The translations under genes and the position numbers were made by a program. Below, in pieces: positions 16,861 through 28,201 of a stretch of 28,480 bases of DNA. The stretch is from a virus: positions 1,071-29,550 of IMG/VR virus record IMGVR_UViG_3300030118_000218, one strand, 5' to 3'. The notes below the pieces were generated by a model that was not told the DNA's origin, searched no databases, and saw only the letters and a list, made by a program, of their open reading frames with translations. Each line of letters starts with the position of its first letter. Position 1 is the stretch's first letter.

Positions 16861-18126
16861 ATGCCGTCAGGTTTTAAAGTATGGTCAACTGGAGATTTAA
16901 TATCTGCTAGTGATTTTAATGATTACATCATGGAGCAAGTCATTATGACTTTTGCAAATGCAACTGCAAGAGATAGCGCAGTATCTAGCCCAGAGGAAGG
17001 TATGTTCTGCTTCCTGAAAGATACCAATGTATTGCAATTTTACAATGGAAGCAGTTGGGCTTCTTATATTGATGAGGGTGACATTACAGGGGTCACGATT
17101 ACAACTTCAGCAACTTCAGGTTTGTCAGGTGGAGCTACTGCTAGCTCTGGAGCGTTTTCAAGCACATTAGTTATAGCACCGAATAGTGCAACAACAGCAA
17201 CTCCTGTGACAGCAGACATTGTAAATTTTGGTGACGCTAGTGATAGCAACGCATTAAAAAAAGCAACGTTAAATGATTTACCAATATCAAGTGCTACTCA
17301 AACTGCTTTAGACGCAATTACAGCAGGAACAACAGCAATTAGAACTGATATTGCTGTGACTGTTGCTGATAATGGCTCAGGCTCACAAAATGAATTTTTT
17401 CTTGAGGGCGCACAAGATATGACACTAAACATTGTGACTGGTTTTAAATATCGTTTTGACCAATCCAATGCTTCAAACTCTGGACATATTTTAAAATTAA
17501 GCACAACTAAAGACGGAACTCATAATTCAGGAAGTGCTTACACCGATAATGTCACAACAACAGGAACACCTGGAAATGCAGGAGCTTATACACAAATTGA
17601 AGTAAAAGCAGATACACCTGAAAGACTTTATATATATTGCGTTAACCATGCAGGTATGGGTGGCGATACTCAACTTACTGCTGGTGGCTTCTCTGTTGAC
17701 GGAGGCGATATAAAAGGTACTACTGATATGAACGATAACGAATTACAAAAAGTAGTATTTACAGATTACGCAGAAAAAGATGTTGCAATATCTTATGGAA
17801 CAGATTTAGCTATTGATTTAGCAAACGGAAATACAGGGTCGGTCACTTTGACTGGTAATGTATCGGGTGGTATTGATTTTACAAACGTTCCAACGAACGG
17901 CACTTCTACTTTTACTTTGAAAATTACACAAGACGGAACAGGGTCAAGAACTCTTGACATAGATGAAATAACTGTAAACGGAGGAAGTCATGTCACAGGT
18001 CTAACACCGGGAAATGCTGGAGTGACTTTGACCACCGCTGCAAACTCAGTTGACTTAGTGACCTTTTTATTTTTTGACGCAGGAACACCATTAATTAACG
18101 CATTACTAGATTTTAAAAACAGTTAG
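16861..18126 (+). CDS. Tail fibre with an embedded cupredoxin-like domain
   Basis: The 421-residue protein begins with a short phage fibre segment (LISASDFNDYIMEQ; RDSAVSSPEEGMFCFLKDT; LQFYNGSSWASY), the 'uninformative text' type often at fibre N-termini. Residues about 163-269 form a separate domain with YRFDQSNASNSGH and LYIYCVNHAGMGG; H209, C260, H263 and M266 match the His-Cys-His-Met set of type-1 copper sites. A further beta region follows (SVTLTGNVSGGIDFTNVP). AGAGGAG precedes the ATG. I cannot show copper binding; the domain may be only structural. Confidence 0.7.
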   Translation: MPSGFKVWSTGDLISASDFNDYIMEQVIMTFANATARDSAVSSPEEGMFCFLKDTNVLQFYNGSSWASYIDEGDITGVTITTSATSGLSGGATASSGAFSSTLVIAPNSATTATPVTADIVNFGDASDSNALKKATLNDLPISSATQTALDAITAGTTAIRTDIAVTVADNGSGSQNEFFLEGAQDMTLNIVTGFKYRFDQSNASNSGHILKLSTTKDGTHNSGSAYTDNVTTTGTPGNAGAYTQIEVKADTPERLYIYCVNHAGMGGDTQLTAGGFSVDGGDIKGTTDMNDNELQKVVFTDYAEKDVAISYGTDLAIDLANGNTGSVTLTGNVSGGIDFTNVPTNGTSTFTLKITQDGTGSRTLDIDEITVNGGSHVTGLTPGNAGVTLTTAANSVDLVTFLFFDAGTPLINALLDFKNS

Positions 18127-18134
18127 GAGTTTTA

Positions 18135-19034
18135 ATGCCTTTAGGAGCAGGACGATTCGGTATGTTAGGTGGCGGAGCATTTAGTCCTGTTGTTGCTTCG
18201 GGCGGAACTACAAATACTTATACTGACGGAGGAGTTGAATACAAATCACACACGTTCACAGGTGGCGGAACTTTTTCTGTGACTGATGTTGGAAGTGAGG
18301 GTGAAGTTCAATTCATGGCTCTTGCAGGCGGTGCTTCTGGAGGTGGAGGTGGCGCTCCAGGGTCAGACGGAGGCGGTGGCGGTGGTGCTGGTGGTATGCT
18401 AGTTGAAACGCTTACCTTATCTGCAACTGGAAGCTACTCAATCGCTGTTGGTGGTGGTGGTGCAAGAACTCGTTGGCGTTCTGATTATGGGTCTGACGGA
18501 AGTGACAGCACTATATCTAATCCAAGTTCAACTGTTATAGCTAGGGCGTATGGCGGTGGTGGTGGAGGAAACTATCACGGAAGCGGACGTTCGGGTGGTA
18601 ATGGCGGAGGCGGAAGTCGAAGCGGGTCAAATGGTGGCTCAAGACAAAATGATACAACAAATTTTCCTAGCTCTGTTCAGGGCAATGCTGGTAATAAAGG
18701 TACTGGCGGTAATGGTGGTGGCGGTGGTGGTCGTGGCGCTACAAACGGAACTACTAATACAACGGCTACTGGTTATGGTGGCTCATCGGCAAATAATAAT
18801 TATTCAACAGGCTCCAATATCGCATATTCAGGTGGCGGTGGTGGAGGCGGATATGGAGGCTCAGGCACAGGCGGAGGAGCTGGTGCAGGAGGCGGAGGCT
18901 ATCATGGTGGCGGTGCGTCAATAGCAAACAGAGGCTCAGGTGGTGGTGGCGGTTGTTGTGGTGCAGATAATTGGGTGACTTCAGGAGGAGGCTCTAGCGG
19001 TCTTGTTGTCATTAGATATTTAACAGGAAACTAA
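18135..19034 (+). CDS. Glycine-rich tail adhesin
   Basis: About 40 % of this 299-residue protein is glycine. The first 60 residues (GVEYKSHTFTGGGTFSVTDV) and the last (SSGLVVIRYLTGN) are the conserved ends of the 'glycine-rich domain' fibre-tip family, and between them lie long Gly tracts interrupted by Ser and Asn. By analogy with T4-like gp38-type adhesins such tracts may form polyglycine-II sandwiches whose loops contact the host receptor. AGGAG precedes the ATG. Long low-complexity ORFs in other frames over this gene are shadows. It is a likely host-range determinant. Confidence 0.8.
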   Translation: MPLGAGRFGMLGGGAFSPVVASGGTTNTYTDGGVEYKSHTFTGGGTFSVTDVGSEGEVQFMALAGGASGGGGGAPGSDGGGGGGAGGMLVETLTLSATGSYSIAVGGGGARTRWRSDYGSDGSDSTISNPSSTVIARAYGGGGGGNYHGSGRSGGNGGGGSRSGSNGGSRQNDTTNFPSSVQGNAGNKGTGGNGGGGGGRGATNGTTNTTATGYGGSSANNNYSTGSNIAYSGGGGGGGYGGSGTGGGAGAGGGGYHGGGASIANRGSGGGGGCCGADNWVTSGGGSSGLVVIRYLTGN

Positions 19035-19037
19035 CGC

Positions 19038-19334
19038 ATGGCTCATTTTGCAGAATTAAATGATGATAATGAAGTTTTAAGAGTTGTTGTAATTAACAAT
19101 GACGACATTAATGACCCTGACAATGAAAGAGGATTATTAGCCGAGCCTGACGGGTTAACTTTTTTAGCAAGTCTTTATGGTGATGACTTAATCTGGAAGC
19201 AAAGTTCAATCAATGAAAACTTTAGAGGCACACATGCTATTGAGGGTGGAACTTACAATGAGGAATATGATATTTTTATTCCGCCTAATATTGAACTTGA
19301 TGAAAACGGGGATTATATACCGCCTACCGACTAA
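19038..19334 (+). CDS. Small virion-associated protein, 'MAHFAEL' family
   Basis: The 98-residue protein (MAHFAELNDDNEVLRVVVIN, then LASLYGDDLIWKQSSINENF and EYDIFIPP) belongs to a group of small proteins I know from marine phages, including cyanophages, usually next to structural genes. In longer relatives the C-terminus carries a Trp/Pro-rich stretch; here it ends early with NGDYIPPTD. Role unknown. It starts 3 nt after the adhesin stop. Confidence 0.65.
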   Translation: MAHFAELNDDNEVLRVVVINNDDINDPDNERGLLAEPDGLTFLASLYGDDLIWKQSSINENFRGTHAIEGGTYNEEYDIFIPPNIELDENGDYIPPTD

Positions 19335-19343
19335 AATTAGGTA

Positions 19344-20474
19344 ATGAAAAAATTAACTATTGTAGGCAAAGGTACTGCTGGAATTTTAGCAGTCAATCAT
19401 TTTGCTAACTATACAAATCCTGATGAATTAGAAATAGAGTGTTTTTACGATAGCAATAAACCTGAGCAAACTGTTGGTGAGGGAACTACTGTTGATTTTC
19501 CTGAAACATTAAATAAAACTTTAGGATTAGAGTTTCACGATATATTTTCTCAATGTAATGGTAATTTTAAAACAGGTATTCATTATATAGGTTGGGGTAA
19601 GCAAGATTACATGCACACGTTCCCAATGCCTAATGTTTCAATACACTTCAACGCTGTTATGTTGCAAAATCTTTTAATGAATAAAAATAAAAAAAGAGTA
19701 AAGTTTATTGATAAATCTGTAAAGCATGATGAATTAAATACAGATTATATTCTTGATTGTTCAGGCAAACCTGATGATGATTCTAGTTTTTATGAAGCTA
19801 AATATATTCCTGTTAATTCAGCAATGGTATATCAATGCAAATGGGATACTCCTCTTTTTTCACATACACTTTGTATAGCTGGTAAGTATGGTTGGATTTT
19901 TGGTATACCTTTGCAAGATAGAATAAGTTTTGGATATTTATTTAATAAAGATATAAATTATAAATCTGAAATAAACGCTGAACTTTTAGCTTTAATTGAT
20001 TCTTATAAGCAAACTCCAAATGATGAATACTTGTTATTAGAATTTAATAATTATTATCGCAAAGTAAATTTTACAGAAAAAGTTGCATACAACGGCAATG
20101 CTAGTTTTTTTCTTGAGCCAATGGAAGCTACAAGCATAGCAACCATAGATGACATTAATAGATTTACTTTTGATATTTTGTTTAATAGAAACGATTTAGA
20201 TTTTGTAAATTCAAAATATAATAAATGGTTTAAAGAAGTTCAAGATATTATTACTTTGCATTATTTAGCTGGTAGCAAATATAAAACTAAATTTTGGAAA
20301 CATGCAAAAAATTTAGCAACAGATTGTTATAACGATAAAAGTCAAATGTTAATTGACATTTTAAAAAATAAAAACAACCCATTATTTAATATAAATAATT
20401 ACGGAACTTGGGGATTAAATAGTTTTAACCAAAATATAGACGGGTTAGGTATAGACATTGAAACTATTTCATAA
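19344..20474 (+). CDS. Flavin-dependent tryptophan-halogenase-like enzyme
   Basis: These enzymes use FADH2, oxygen and halide to halogenate an electron-rich ring. The nucleotide-binding motif VGKGTAG is at residues 7-13. A FKTGIHYIGW segment carries K76, aligning with the catalytic Lys of PrnA/RebH. YGWIFGIPL (W184, F186, I188, P189) is a variant of the WxWxIP motif with Phe in place of the second Trp. FFLEPMEATSI (256-265) matches the conserved EPLESTSI site. At 376 residues it is shorter than PrnA (about 540). A cyanophage relative is reported to be active on small aromatic substrates. No reductase gene is visible nearby. The substrate here is unknown. Confidence 0.85.
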   Translation: MKKLTIVGKGTAGILAVNHFANYTNPDELEIECFYDSNKPEQTVGEGTTVDFPETLNKTLGLEFHDIFSQCNGNFKTGIHYIGWGKQDYMHTFPMPNVSIHFNAVMLQNLLMNKNKKRVKFIDKSVKHDELNTDYILDCSGKPDDDSSFYEAKYIPVNSAMVYQCKWDTPLFSHTLCIAGKYGWIFGIPLQDRISFGYLFNKDINYKSEINAELLALIDSYKQTPNDEYLLLEFNNYYRKVNFTEKVAYNGNASFFLEPMEATSIATIDDINRFTFDILFNRNDLDFVNSKYNKWFKEVQDIITLHYLAGSKYKTKFWKHAKNLATDCYNDKSQMLIDILKNKNNPLFNINNYGTWGLNSFNQNIDGLGIDIETIS

Positions 20475-21126
20475 TTACAAAAAAACAAAAATAGGATACA
20501 CATTTTTAAATGACACAAAAATAAGAGGCATAACTAAACCACCTGAACTTTTAAATAGTCCTAACTTTAACTGCCCTAGTATTACCAGCACAAATAATAG
20601 GATATTAGCAATCTACCCAAAGCTGTCCGCAGAATTTGAAATTAAAATTGATGAACACGCACACTTTGATTATGTAATAAATAAAAAGCACCATAAGTCA
20701 ACACAAAAAATGCATGACTTACTTTTAGATAGTGTTCTTTTAGAGCAAGTAAACGGCAAGTATCATTTTCAACTTGTTGGCGATATTTGTATTGTCACAG
20801 ACGATAAAGATTTAGAACTTCTTACTGTTGTTGCGCCTGATGTAAATAATAAAGATTGTAATTTTATTAATGGAGCATTTTATCCATACGCTTGGTTAAG
20901 ACCATTAAATAGTGCATGGGAAGTTAAAGACGGAAGCAAAATAATATTTGATAGGAATACACCTTTTATGTATTTAATATTTAATAAACCTGTTGAAATA
21001 AAATATGTTGAAAATGAAAATATAAAAAACTATCAAAAAGAAACTTTTGACATTGTAAATTATGGACTGGGCATAAAAGAATTATTTAAAAACACGTTAA
21101 GCCGTAGACCAAAAAAATTGCTATAA
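20458..21126 (+). CDS. Unknown partner of the halogenase
   Basis: The 222-residue product starts at a TTG inside the last codons of the halogenase (17 nt overlap), so the two are co-translated. It contains NSPNFNCPSI, SAEFEIKIDEHAHFDYV and NGAFYPYAWLRPLNSAWEV, with many aromatic residues and a beta-rich look. I recall similar genes in viral genomes near halogenases or oxygenases, but know no function. It has no transmembrane segment. It could be a substrate-presenting or dioxygenase-like accessory protein; this is inference. The C-terminus is basic (LSRRPKKLL). Confidence 0.6.
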   Translation: MKLFHNYKKTKIGYTFLNDTKIRGITKPPELLNSPNFNCPSITSTNNRILAIYPKLSAEFEIKIDEHAHFDYVINKKHHKSTQKMHDLLLDSVLLEQVNGKYHFQLVGDICIVTDDKDLELLTVVAPDVNNKDCNFINGAFYPYAWLRPLNSAWEVKDGSKIIFDRNTPFMYLIFNKPVEIKYVENENIKNYQKETFDIVNYGLGIKELFKNTLSRRPKKLL

Positions 21127-21127: not shown

Positions 21128-21134
21128 TTTGAGC

Positions 21135-21713
21135 ATGAAACTTGACGTTGTAAGAACACAATTTGGTAAAGACGCAACCAATGGTTTGCTGTTTATAGAC
21201 GGAAAATTTGAGTGTTATACACTTGAGGACGAATATAGAACAGTAAAAGTAATGCATGAAACTTGTATACCAGAGGGAGTTTATCCTATTGAATTTAGAA
21301 CTGTTGGAGGCTTTGACGCAAAATACACAAAAAGGTATGGTGAGGAATTTCATAAAGGTATGTTATGGATTAGAGGAGTTCCTGAGTTTGAATATATTTT
21401 AATTCATACGGGCAACACCGATTCTCATACATCAGGTTGTTTGCTGGTTGGTGAAACTCAACAAGATTTAGACAAAGGTAAAGACGGATTTGTTGGTGGC
21501 TCAGGTGACGCATATAAAAAAATGTATCCAAAAGTTAGGGACGCTTTATTAAATGGTGAGCAAGTTGAAATTAAATATTCAAAAATAAATTTAGATTCTA
21601 GTGAAACTAAAGTCTATCAAACAAAACCTAATCATATTGAGGAAAAAATTTCTGACATTAGCGGGAAACTGGAAATACTGATAGCTAAAATGGAGGGCAA
21701 GAATATAATCTAA
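21135..21713 (+). CDS. DUF5675 / L,D-transpeptidase-like protein (possible endolysin)
   Basis: The protein (192 residues from ATG 21135) shows the DUF5675 pattern: VVRTQFGKDATNGLLFIDG, ECYTLEDEYRTV, CIPEGVYPIEFR, then ILIHTGNTDSHTSGCLLVG. The last stretch (His, then SGC) resembles the active site of L,D-transpeptidases, which act on peptidoglycan. This family often lies next to phage lysis genes, as it does here, so a cell-wall role is plausible. The C-terminal 45 residues are Lys-rich and helical (ISDISGKLEILIAKMEGKN). I prefer ATG 21135 to TTG 21129 because the TATAAT box ends at 21127. Confidence 0.65.
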   Translation: MKLDVVRTQFGKDATNGLLFIDGKFECYTLEDEYRTVKVMHETCIPEGVYPIEFRTVGGFDAKYTKRYGEEFHKGMLWIRGVPEFEYILIHTGNTDSHTSGCLLVGETQQDLDKGKDGFVGGSGDAYKKMYPKVRDALLNGEQVEIKYSKINLDSSETKVYQTKPNHIEEKISDISGKLEILIAKMEGKNII

Positions 21714-21727
21714 CGGGGAGTCGCCCT

Positions 21728-21859
21728 ATCAAAATCTCTTGTCCAAAATGCAAAGCAAACTTATTGTATAACTTAAAACAGCAAAACTTTTTTTGTGGAA
21801 ATAAAAAGTGCAAAGATTACAACCGCCGACAATTTGGTGGTAATATCAAGAAAGAATAA
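21728..21859 (+). CDS. Zinc-ribbon microprotein with probable ATC start
   Basis: The frame encodes 43 residues beginning (M)KISCPKCKANLL and with CGNKKC in the middle: a CxxC ... CxxxxC zinc-ribbon layout. No ATG, GTG or TTG lies between the upstream stop in this frame and the first Cys pair. An ATC at 21728 sits 7 nt after a clear GGGGAG site and is where an ATG would be expected. The stop TAA is inside the RBS of the next gene. It may be a small nucleic-acid-binding protein. Confidence is limited by the unusual start. Confidence 0.45.
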   Translation: MKISCPKCKANLLYNLKQQNFFCGNKKCKDYNRRQFGGNIKKE

Positions 21860-21869
21860 GGAGCATATT

Positions 21870-22076
21870 ATTAAGAAAAATTATTGGTTATTCATTTTAA
21901 ATAAAGCATTTAGAACAGGTTTGCAATCCGCAATCTCATTATATTTAGCACAGTCCACAGGGATTATAAATGCAGATGTATGGGAATTAATTGGTGTTGC
22001 ATTTCTTACTAGCGCATTATCAGTAGTACAAAACGGATTGGAGCAATATAAACCTAAAACTACATTTGAGGACTAG
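21870..22076 (+). CDS. Holin-like membrane protein
   Basis: The core NYWLFILNKAFRTGLQSAIS, then ADVWELIGVAFLTSALSVVQNGL, is a small two-helix membrane protein typical of holins, which permeabilise the inner membrane to release endolysin. A frame from GTG 21795 exists but has no RBS and overlaps the zinc-ribbon ORF. AAGGAG (21858-21863) is 6 nt before ATT 21870, so translation may start at ATT, giving about 68 residues starting IKKNYW. The C-terminus is charged (EQYKPKTTFED). It lies right after the DUF5675 gene. Confidence 0.6.
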   Translation: MKKNYWLFILNKAFRTGLQSAISLYLAQSTGIINADVWELIGVAFLTSALSVVQNGLEQYKPKTTFED

Positions 22077-24942: not shown

Positions 24943-25545
24943 ATGTTAGAACTAAATGAAGTTGATATTGATACGTTGAAAGAATATCCTGATAATCCAC
25001 GTCAGGGCGACATTTATAAAATTAGTGAAAGTTTAAATCAGCACGGACAATATAGACCCTTAACTGTAAATAAAAGGGATATGACAATTCTTACAGGCAA
25101 TCACACTTGGAAGGCAATGAAACAATTAGGTTGGAAAACTTGTATTGTCACTTATGTAGATGTAGATGAAACTCAAGCAAAAAAAATTGTATTAGTTGAT
25201 AACAGGCTCGGTGATATTGCTGGTTATGATGATGAGCTTCTTAGCAAAATGCTACAAGAAATTGTTGATAGTGGCGATTATTTAGGCACAGGTTTTAACG
25301 CTAGAGAAATAGATGAACTTCTTGCTGGTGTTGACGATACTATTGATGATTTTGATACAGAGTTTGAGGAAGTAAAACCTGCAAAAGAAAAACAAGCAAT
25401 TCAAGAAATAGTTTTGTATTTAGATGATGAACAATTTGAGCGATATAAAAAATGGGTCAATGCTTTAGCAGATGAAATGAAATGTAATTTAACTGAAGCA
25501 ACTTATAACGCTGTGAAATATACTTTTGATGAACTTGGCTTATGA
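24943..25545 (+). CDS. ParB-like nuclease/DNA-binding protein 1
   Basis: The 200-residue product has the ParB N-terminal domain: NPR at 18-20, QHGQYRPLTV, TGNHTWKAMKQLGW and VLVDNRLGDIAGYDDELL. In chromosome partitioning this domain binds CTP; in phages it is common as a nuclease or NTP-using accessory to DNA modification. The C-terminal part (about 105-200) is acidic and helical. AGGAGG precedes the ATG. It overlaps the next, related gene by 4 nt (ATGA), a tandem duplication with divergence. The function in this phage is unknown. Confidence 0.75.
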   Translation: MLELNEVDIDTLKEYPDNPRQGDIYKISESLNQHGQYRPLTVNKRDMTILTGNHTWKAMKQLGWKTCIVTYVDVDETQAKKIVLVDNRLGDIAGYDDELLSKMLQEIVDSGDYLGTGFNAREIDELLAGVDDTIDDFDTEFEEVKPAKEKQAIQEIVLYLDDEQFERYKKWVNALADEMKCNLTEATYNAVKYTFDELGL

Positions 25546-26204
25546 AAACTGTAAAGCTAAAAGATTTAAAACAATACGGAAGCAATCCACGAATCGGCAA
25601 TGTTGATTTAATTGCTGAATCTTTAAAAGAAAATGGACAGTTTAGACCATTAATTGTAAATAAAGATAACACAATTCTTGCAGGAAATCATACTTACCTA
25701 GCAATGAAGCAGTTGGGTTGGACTGAGTGTGACGTTCATTATATTGATGTTGATAAAAAACAAGCAAAGAAAATCGTTCTTGTTGACAATAGGTTAAATG
25801 ATGTAGCTGGTTATGACAGCGAACTTATAACTGAAATGCTAACTGATTTAATGTTGGCGGGTGAACTTGTTGGTACTGGTTTTACTGAGGACGAAGTTGA
25901 TGACTTACAAGCAGAATTTGATGAAGTTGTTATAACTGAGTTTGAGGAATTTGAGGGTGGCTACGCTCTTAGTGATGAGGAAATTGAAAATATAAAAGAA
26001 CGTAGAAAAAATAATACAGGACGTAATGACGGCAAAGCATTAAAAGATATACCCGTAGCTTTACAAGAAAAAAGATATTATGAATTTAGAGATATGGTTT
26101 TAAAAATATCACAAGAAAAAAAATTAAACTCTACAGAAGCAATATTATTCTGTTTAGAATATGCATTTAAAAACAAAAAGCCACGTTTTAAATTTTTCAA
26201 GTGA
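25542..26204 (+). CDS. ParB-like nuclease/DNA-binding protein 2 (paralogue)
   Basis: The 220-residue product shares NPR (15-17), ENGQFRPLIVNKDNTILAGN and VLVDNRLNDVAGYDSELI with the gene before it. It differs by an extra Lys/Arg-rich C-terminal part (LKDIPVALQEKRYYEFRD; LNSTEAILFCLEYAFKNK). Both therefore come from one duplication. It starts inside the ATGA overlap and ends 4 nt into the glycosyltransferase. A role in loading or guiding DNA-modifying enzymes is possible, but this is inference from position. Confidence 0.75.
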   Translation: MKTVKLKDLKQYGSNPRIGNVDLIAESLKENGQFRPLIVNKDNTILAGNHTYLAMKQLGWTECDVHYIDVDKKQAKKIVLVDNRLNDVAGYDSELITEMLTDLMLAGELVGTGFTEDEVDDLQAEFDEVVITEFEEFEGGYALSDEEIENIKERRKNNTGRNDGKALKDIPVALQEKRYYEFRDMVLKISQEKKLNSTEAILFCLEYAFKNKKPRFKFFK

Positions 26205-27170: not shown

Positions 27171-27341
27171 ATGATTGATATAAATGAAATGATTTCAATA
27201 ATAAAAGAAATTGATATTGGAAAATACACGCAAGAGGAATATAGGGAAGTTGTGGATTCGATTACTGTAAACTTCAAAGCCAAATGGTATGATGAGCTTT
27301 ATGACCAAAAAGGTTGGCGAGAATTTGGGGGACAGAGTTGA
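27171..27341 (+). CDS. Small acidic hypothetical protein (56 aa)
   Basis: ATG 27171 has AAAGGAC about 7 nt upstream and opens 56 codons (MIDINEMISIIKEIDIGKYT), ending EFGGQS. It is helical and acidic with several Trp and Tyr. Its stop overlaps the start of the dioxygenase (TTGA), so the two are coupled. It may be a small partner of the dioxygenase. No family is recognised. Confidence 0.65.
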   Translation: MIDINEMISIIKEIDIGKYTQEEYREVVDSITVNFKAKWYDELYDQKGWREFGGQS

Positions 27342-28201
27342 TTGATATTAGGTTGCGCTCAAAAATTTCTGAAAAAGAACTTGAGCAAAAGATTGGAAAA
27401 ATCTTAACTGATAATGATTACAATATTTTAATTACGAAAGATACAACTGTGCGATTTCCTAATGGGCAAGTTGGAGCAATATATTTAAAAGAAGCAATTC
27501 CAGAAAATTTATCAACTGATAGTTATGAAGTATTGCATAGTTTAAAAAGTCATCAAACATCTAATAGGGGTATGGCTAGTGGGCTTCCAAGATTAAAACG
27601 GAATAGCGGCGGAACAAGAACTGATACTGCAAAAAGTATTTCCTCAGCAATAATTGGAAGTTTAGACCCTGTTGGTATGCAACAGTATTGTAGGTTGACT
27701 GCGTTTTCTGCAAAAGATTTTAAAAAATATGAGAGCCTTTTTCCGTTGTTTGTTTATATAGGTGAGCAAATGAAAAAGTATGCACCCGAAAGATACAACG
27801 CTCAAATGGAATTTGTTAATAGAACGAATAAGGATTGGGTAATACCAAATACACCTTTTACAACTATTACAGTAAATAATTCTTATCCTACTGGTGTTCA
27901 TACTGATAAGGGCGATTTAGATGAGGGCATTTCTACATTGGCTTGTATTAAAAAAGGTGATTGTCAGGGTGGCTATTTAGTTTTACCAGAATATAGGATT
28001 GCATTTAAAATGGGTGATAGAGATTTATTAATATTTGACGCTCATCAATATCATGGAAATACAAAATTAGAAATGAATAGTGATGACGCAGAGCGAATTA
28101 GTATTGTAAGTTATTACAGAACAAAAATGGAAAACTGCGATAGCGCAGATGAGGAGTATGAAAAAAGGTTAAGGTATGCCGAACGAAAAATTAAGAGATG
28201 A
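27338..28201 (+). CDS. TET/JBP-type Fe(II)/2-oxoglutarate DNA dioxygenase
   Basis: The 287-residue enzyme would oxidise the methyl group of modified pyrimidines in DNA. Iron ligands H188 and D190 lie in GVHTDKGDLDEG; the distal His is H239 (or H236) in LIFDAHQYHGN; R253 in ERISIVSYYR would hold 2-oxoglutarate. The GGYLVLPEYRIAF strand pattern is that of the JBP/TET group. I place the start at TTG 27338 after TGGGGGACAGAG (5 nt spacing) instead of an earlier TTG at 27314, because it overlaps the upstream stop and has an RBS. The neighbouring glycosyltransferase supports DNA hypermodification. No DNA methyltransferase is in view. Confidence 0.85.
   Translation: MIDIRLRSKISEKELEQKIGKILTDNDYNILITKDTTVRFPNGQVGAIYLKEAIPENLSTDSYEVLHSLKSHQTSNRGMASGLPRLKRNSGGTRTDTAKSISSAIIGSLDPVGMQQYCRLTAFSAKDFKKYESLFPLFVYIGEQMKKYAPERYNAQMEFVNRTNKDWVIPNTPFTTITVNNSYPTGVHTDKGDLDEGISTLACIKKGDCQGGYLVLPEYRIAFKMGDRDLLIFDAHQYHGNTKLEMNSDDAERISIVSYYRTKMENCDSADEEYEKRLRYAERKIKR

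Follow-up and report, generated by a model that had tools for sequence, protein, structure and literature searches.

A marine phage carries, between its fibre and lysis genes, a short viral flavin-dependent halogenase (FDH) homologue whose gene overlaps that of a partner from a DUF6065/phrog_7084-like family, and in related phages the same slot contains members of this partner family alone, with a halogenase, or with 2OG-Fe oxygenase-like enzymes. The partner family has a probable dUTPase-like (beta-clip) fold, and we refer to its members as beta-clip genes. What recurs in the slot is the beta-clip genes, whereas the halogenase or 2OG-Fe oxygenase can be exchanged, a pattern that suggests an exchangeable kit for the chemical modification of some component of the phage surface or of the host surface. 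Halogenases have already been reported in cyanophages (PMC3037559, PMC2984593, PMC10452541), and halogenating phages are thus not new as such; the new part is a slot with common partners and swappable enzymes.

A short halogenase homologue in the late region

The window, by which we mean the whole stretch of 28,480 nt that was analysed, covers positions 1,071 to 29,550 of IMG/VR record IMGVR_UViG_3300030118_000218 (29,550 bases in total). The halogenase homologue is a 376-aa open reading frame (ORF) with an ATG start at 19344..20474, and its partner, a 222-aa ORF of the A1 type with a TTG start, lies at 20458..21126, the two overlapping by 17 nt (20458-20474). Upstream, a 421-aa tail fibre protein (16861..18126; phrog_693 tail fiber, E 5e-16) is followed by a 299-aa Gly-rich, putatively adhesive protein (18135..19034; PF21722 Gly_rich_2, E 5e-11; phrog_2295, E 8e-32) and by a 98-aa phrog_7759 ("MAHFA") protein with no assigned function (19038..19334; E 3e-19; neighbour cluster c1). 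Downstream lie a 194-aa DUF5675 protein on the right side of the slot (21129..21713; PF18925, E 1e-28) and a 93-aa holin-like protein (21795..22076; phrog_443 lysis/holin, E 1e-4), all seven genes being on the plus strand. An earlier, sequence-only reading of this DNA had located both ORFs and their overlap correctly and had placed the halogenase between fibre and lysis genes, as these matches bear out.

Elsewhere in the window, a weak match to the transposase helix-turn-helix HTH_Tnp_1 was found at 1989-2441 (+; E 2e-5), and a TET/JBP 2OG-Fe oxygenase is encoded 7 kb downstream of the slot (27314-28201, +; PF12851, E 1.3e-26). Ahead of it, two ParB-like proteins are encoded (24943-25545 and 25542-26204). 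The ParB-like pair and the TET/JBP gene may form a phage DNA base-oxidation module. A TET/JBP pathway common to slot phages was considered and rejected, as no TET/JBP gene was found in 27 related records by a search that does detect the window copy.

The identification of the 376-aa ORF as a halogenase is supported by its matches to PF04820 (E 3.3e-38, 132 bits vs. a cut-off of 21), to phrog_2928 (E 5e-70) and to 30 FDH sequences from the PDB. In addition, its AlphaFold model (AF2, 63 sequences; mean pLDDT 95.8) aligns to solved FDHs across almost the full length, with Z 41 to SttH and AbeH (VIA). The FAD site is kept, with the GxGxxG motif present as GKGTAG (8-13) and G8, G10, and G13 each found in 62 of 63 short FDHs. 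According to a HMMER profile alignment with PrnA, in which the residue numbers were set by hand, the predicted catalytic lysine K76 (62/63) pairs with K79, and E261 (61/63), the second Glu of an EPMEATSI motif at residues 258-265, pairs with E346. W184 and F186 pair with W272 and W274, H91 and F93 with H101 and F103, and W356 was paired with PrnA W455 by way of a RebH alignment. Thus, the FAD site, the lysine, and the EPMEATSI motif are all as first proposed, E258 can be listed with E261, K76, W184, and F186 among the key halogenase residues, and the aromatic clamp of PrnA is retained as H91 (59/63), F93 (60/63), and W356 (59/63).

The first reading had also singled out WIFGIP (184-189) in place of the WxWxIP motif. 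The substitution is present, but it is not an oddity: with W184 in 63/63 and F186 in 62/63 of the short viral FDHs, WIFGIP is the norm of the clade, and, being clade-wide, the deviation gives no sign of altered function. WxWxIP has served as a criterion for FDH membership, and the protein does not have it; since this motif or its variants are missing from a number of FDHs (PMC8407142), it is not strictly defining, and its absence does not exclude the protein as an FDH. We therefore regard the 376-aa protein as a genuine FDH homologue from a short, virus-only clade in which it is well conserved, and from homology it would be expected to halogenate.

The substrate pocket differs from that of PrnA. 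Y443, Y444, and E450 of PrnA are part of the Trp4 tryptophan-binding motif (PMC8269204) and clamp the backbone of tryptophan; the matching positions of the short enzymes, 344, 345, and 351, are variable (63 sequences, profile alignment), and the 376-aa enzyme does not class as a free-tryptophan halogenase by this clamp. The short clade also has ~53 internal and ~65 C-terminal residues fewer than PrnA, where the segments ~104-156 and ~474-538, as read from the alignment, are without counterpart in it. Given both losses, the pocket would be an open one that takes an aromatic group other than free tryptophan. FDHs without the Trp4 motif have been reported to be active on indole and not on tryptophan (PMC8269204), and the natural substrate here is probably a ring within a larger substrate rather than free tryptophan. 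As for the cofactor, no flavin reductase is found nearby, as had been noted: a PF01613 search was negative in the 29.5-kb record and in 27 related records (search control positive in 13/14 genomes), so the host would have to supply the reduced flavin.

Several known enzymes resemble this protein. VirX1, the FDH of cyanophage Syn10 (PDB 6qgm), is of the same PF04820 family and fold (VIA Z 31), and its catalytic lysine, K79 (PMC8407142), is at a place equivalent to K76, but VirX1 is longer (531 aa vs. 376 aa). The bacterial FDHs BrvH, Xcc4156, and MibH share the fold (VIA Z 39, 40, and 35), and the Trp4 motif is also missing from BrvH (PMC8269204), whereas all three are ~500 aa long and have other gene neighbours; MibH acts on a lanthipeptide Trp, according to the title of its structure entry. 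The "tryptophan halogenases" of the cyanomyoviruses S-ShM2, Sf-CH8, and S-RIM4 are likewise short FDHs (30-45% identity), and those of S-ShM2 and S-RIM4 lie close to tail fibre genes, as here, but no overlapping beta-clip gene was found for them; S-RIM4 does have a beta-clip relative, a long way from the halogenase and beside ribonucleotide reductase genes. To our knowledge, no beta-clip neighbour is known for VirX1.

The overlapping partner and its family

The partner had been called unknown by the first reading, and this is the part of its description that changes. Its own Pfam, PHROG, NCBIfam, and PDB searches gave no match, as did tblastn in 50,697 phage records, and a peptide scan with its own sequence found nothing. 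Orphan status was nevertheless rejected, as many relatives emerged when the copy from locus L004, alignments, or another type of relative served as the query. HMM iteration from either partner-type (A1) or phrog_7084-type (A2) seeds converges on an identical set of 139 ORFs, and we therefore assign the partner, from these profiles, to a DUF6065/phrog_7084-like superfamily. The link to phrog_7084 stands on this iteration, since hhalign of an early, shallow partner alignment against the phrog_7084 alignment gave no match. Similarity to DUF6065 is seen in 7 of 34 superfamily members, with a best E of 0.0012, and the window partner is without several residues conserved among A2-type members. One Cys, one His, and one Asp (C63, H106, and D164 in L048 numbering) are invariant in the A2-type alignment A6; in the wider set, the Cys alone is kept by all 34 members. 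The clearest counterpart of the partner is in L004, where it overlaps the halogenase by 23 nt and likewise ends in RRPKKLL. A search of a paper library found no paper naming DUF6065.

The probable dUTPase-like fold is one to which model and profile evidence points weakly. The AF2 model of the partner (pLDDT 69) gives VIA Z 6.3 to dUTPases, a range where unrelated folds score too, and a Foldseek search of the partner against the PDB gave no match below E 0.001. Similarity to PF00692 (dUTPase) is found in 2 of the 34 members and is weak (best E 0.019), and the residue at the position of the catalytic Asp of dUTPase motif 3 varies in the slot proteins, in an alignment of ~10% identity. The partner may have a role in handling the substrate. 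DUF6065-like beta-clip relatives with ribonucleotide reductase or thymidylate synthase genes in their vicinity also occur in cyanophage S-RIM4 (L132 4950-5744) and in the haloarchaeal viruses HSTV-2 (L130 5848-6717) and HJTV-2 (L131 5860-6696).

Enzyme exchange in the slot and the spread of short halogenases

Gene order in the related phages usually runs from the tail genes through the Gly-rich protein and the phrog_7759 protein to the slot, and on to lysis genes with DUF5675 and an exonuclease. The Gly-rich protein is at the equivalent place in most of the related slot loci, and the phrog_7759 protein is the usual left border of the slot. The slot itself may contain one to four beta-clip genes and nothing else, a halogenase flanked by beta-clip genes, or a beta-clip gene accompanied by one or two genes that resemble 2OG-Fe oxygenases. 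Pfam searches matched the slot oxygenase of L174 to PF13640 (E 8e-6) and gave a weak similarity to Asp/Arg hydroxylase for the insert of L147 (E 0.006), and BLAST placed the remaining oxygenase-like genes in clusters represented by sequences with matches to 2OG families. A methyltransferase suspected by eye in the slot of L152/L155 was not confirmed by Pfam. After the removal of near copies, 16 of 37 beta-clip loci have a halogenase, adjacent in 14, although these counts are biased, the halogenase having been the route to some of the loci. The partner does not belong to this enzyme alone, as its relatives fill the slot where there is no halogenase at all. In L005 (393-5824), several 2OG-Fe oxygenase-like ORFs surround a halogenase, with a phrog_7759-like protein encoded upstream.

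At least 571 stretches in a scan of viral contigs encode relatives of the short halogenase, and 84,980 bacterial and archaeal genomes yielded eight loci, all of them on contigs from metagenome-assembled genomes, which makes the short form look essentially viral. When 79 short FDHs were placed in a tree, those touching beta-clip genes formed one 17-row clade (15/17 with the flank, support 97/68) with a nested 14-row subclade (support 100/99). As for the two rows without the flank, the sequence of L001 stops within the halogenase, and L046, a close relative (61-62% identity), has the halogenase but truly lacks the partner. None of the other 62 rows has an adjacent beta-clip gene; a few have one some kilobases away. 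The overlap of the two genes persists despite large sequence divergence.

The wider neighbourhoods are diverse. Among 66 non-redundant short FDHs, 26 have fibre, adhesin, or tail-chaperone genes no more than three genes away, 14 others are found with 2OG oxygenases, and 26 with neither, so that 40/66 are not near fibre genes. In another phage group (L094, L100, L103, L116, and L117), a collagen-like fibre, a tail assembly chaperone (PF16778-type), and the halogenase stand in a row. Short halogenases can also be repeated: three ORFs lie within ~4.5 kb of one phage contig (L109 1569-5860, L110 5001-9292, L106 1539-5830), and tandem pairs occur in L070, L081-L083, and L093.

Possible targets of the halogenase

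The best explanation, which we put forward tentatively, is that the enzyme halogenates an aromatic group belonging to a larger substrate at a surface, and that the beta-clip protein is the partner that handles this substrate. With host-supplied FADH2, O2, and a halide from seawater, hypohalous acid would be generated at the flavin and transferred to K76; the target of halogenation would be an electron-rich aromatic ring, held by H91, F93, and W356 and polarised by E261. The ring would probably be on a surface component, such as the neighbouring tail adhesin, the phrog_7759 protein, or a host surface polymer, and the beta-clip protein may present the substrate that carries it. The genomic context, between adhesin and lysis genes, favours a surface target. 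The intact active site, the variable Trp4 positions, the presence of the lanthipeptide Trp halogenase MibH among the structural matches, the clade-linked coupling to beta-clip genes, the enzyme swap, the proximity to fibre, adhesin, or tail-chaperone genes in 26/66, and the lack of a flavin reductase in the record and 27 relatives speak for this explanation. Against it are L046, the many beta-clip arrays without a halogenase, and the 40/66 short FDHs away from fibre genes; the first two mean that neither gene needs the other. The beta-clip relatives of S-RIM4 and the haloarchaeal viruses, near thymidylate synthase or ribonucleotide reductase genes, also speak against it, as a nucleotide role fits them better, and so do the low model confidence and Z score behind the partner fold.

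It is also possible, if doubtful, that the enzyme makes a small halogenated metabolite in the infected cell, antibiotic-like or signalling, and that the place beside the adhesin is an insertion site tolerant of accessory genes. Away from fibre genes, other short FDHs do have 2OG oxygenases and carbamoyltransferases as neighbours, and a cluster of this kind in jumbo cyanophages has been read as a system for a halogenated metabolite or for capsule decoration (PMC7824862). VirX1, characterised in vitro, takes many small aromatics (PMC8407142). However, the neighbours of the present clade are beta-clip proteins and tail genes, with no biosynthetic cluster, and the overlap with the beta-clip gene has been kept as the sequences diverged.

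Two more specific surface schemes seem unlikely. In one, the enzyme would halogenate an aromatic group of the host envelope late in infection, the target being the receptor and not the adhesin, which might block superinfection or keep progeny from being lost on debris. This agrees with the place of the gene, between those for receptor binding and for lysis, and with the exchange of halogenase and 2OG oxygenase, as expected of a diversifying surface chemistry, but an FAD enzyme would have to act in the cytoplasm, prior to the export of its target. In the other, similarly improbable, dUTPase-fold carriers would present part of the receptor-binding tail to a swappable halogenase or 2OG-Fe oxygenase, and the phage would diversify its own adhesin, here at aromatic side chains. 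The Trp/Tyr content of the adhesins was discarded as evidence, as the difference in Trp per 100 residues (0.89 in halogenase loci vs. 0.46 without) is confounded by the relatedness of the loci.

An incidental pairing, with the halogenase a decaying passenger, is very unlikely: a single beta-clip gene is left in the window and in L004, and none in L046, but every catalytic residue is intact and conservation is strong across the clade. Least probable of all is a nucleotide or DNA base modification, in which dUTPase-fold proteins would bind a pyrimidine nucleotide and the halogenase would make a 5-halopyrimidine; the weak dUTPase similarity of the partner family, its relatives beside nucleotide genes, and the downstream TET/JBP oxygenase are set against a variable motif-3 Asp, the lack of TET/JBP genes in the 27 related records, and a slot located among late genes.

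We know of no natural substrate for viral halogenases such as VirX1. The stable, overlapping partner family, together with the enzyme swap at a fixed place beside the adhesin, provides a concrete lead on the targets of these enzymes and a reason to examine the surface molecules of phage and host for halogen. For the DUF6065-like family, it would be the first functional context.
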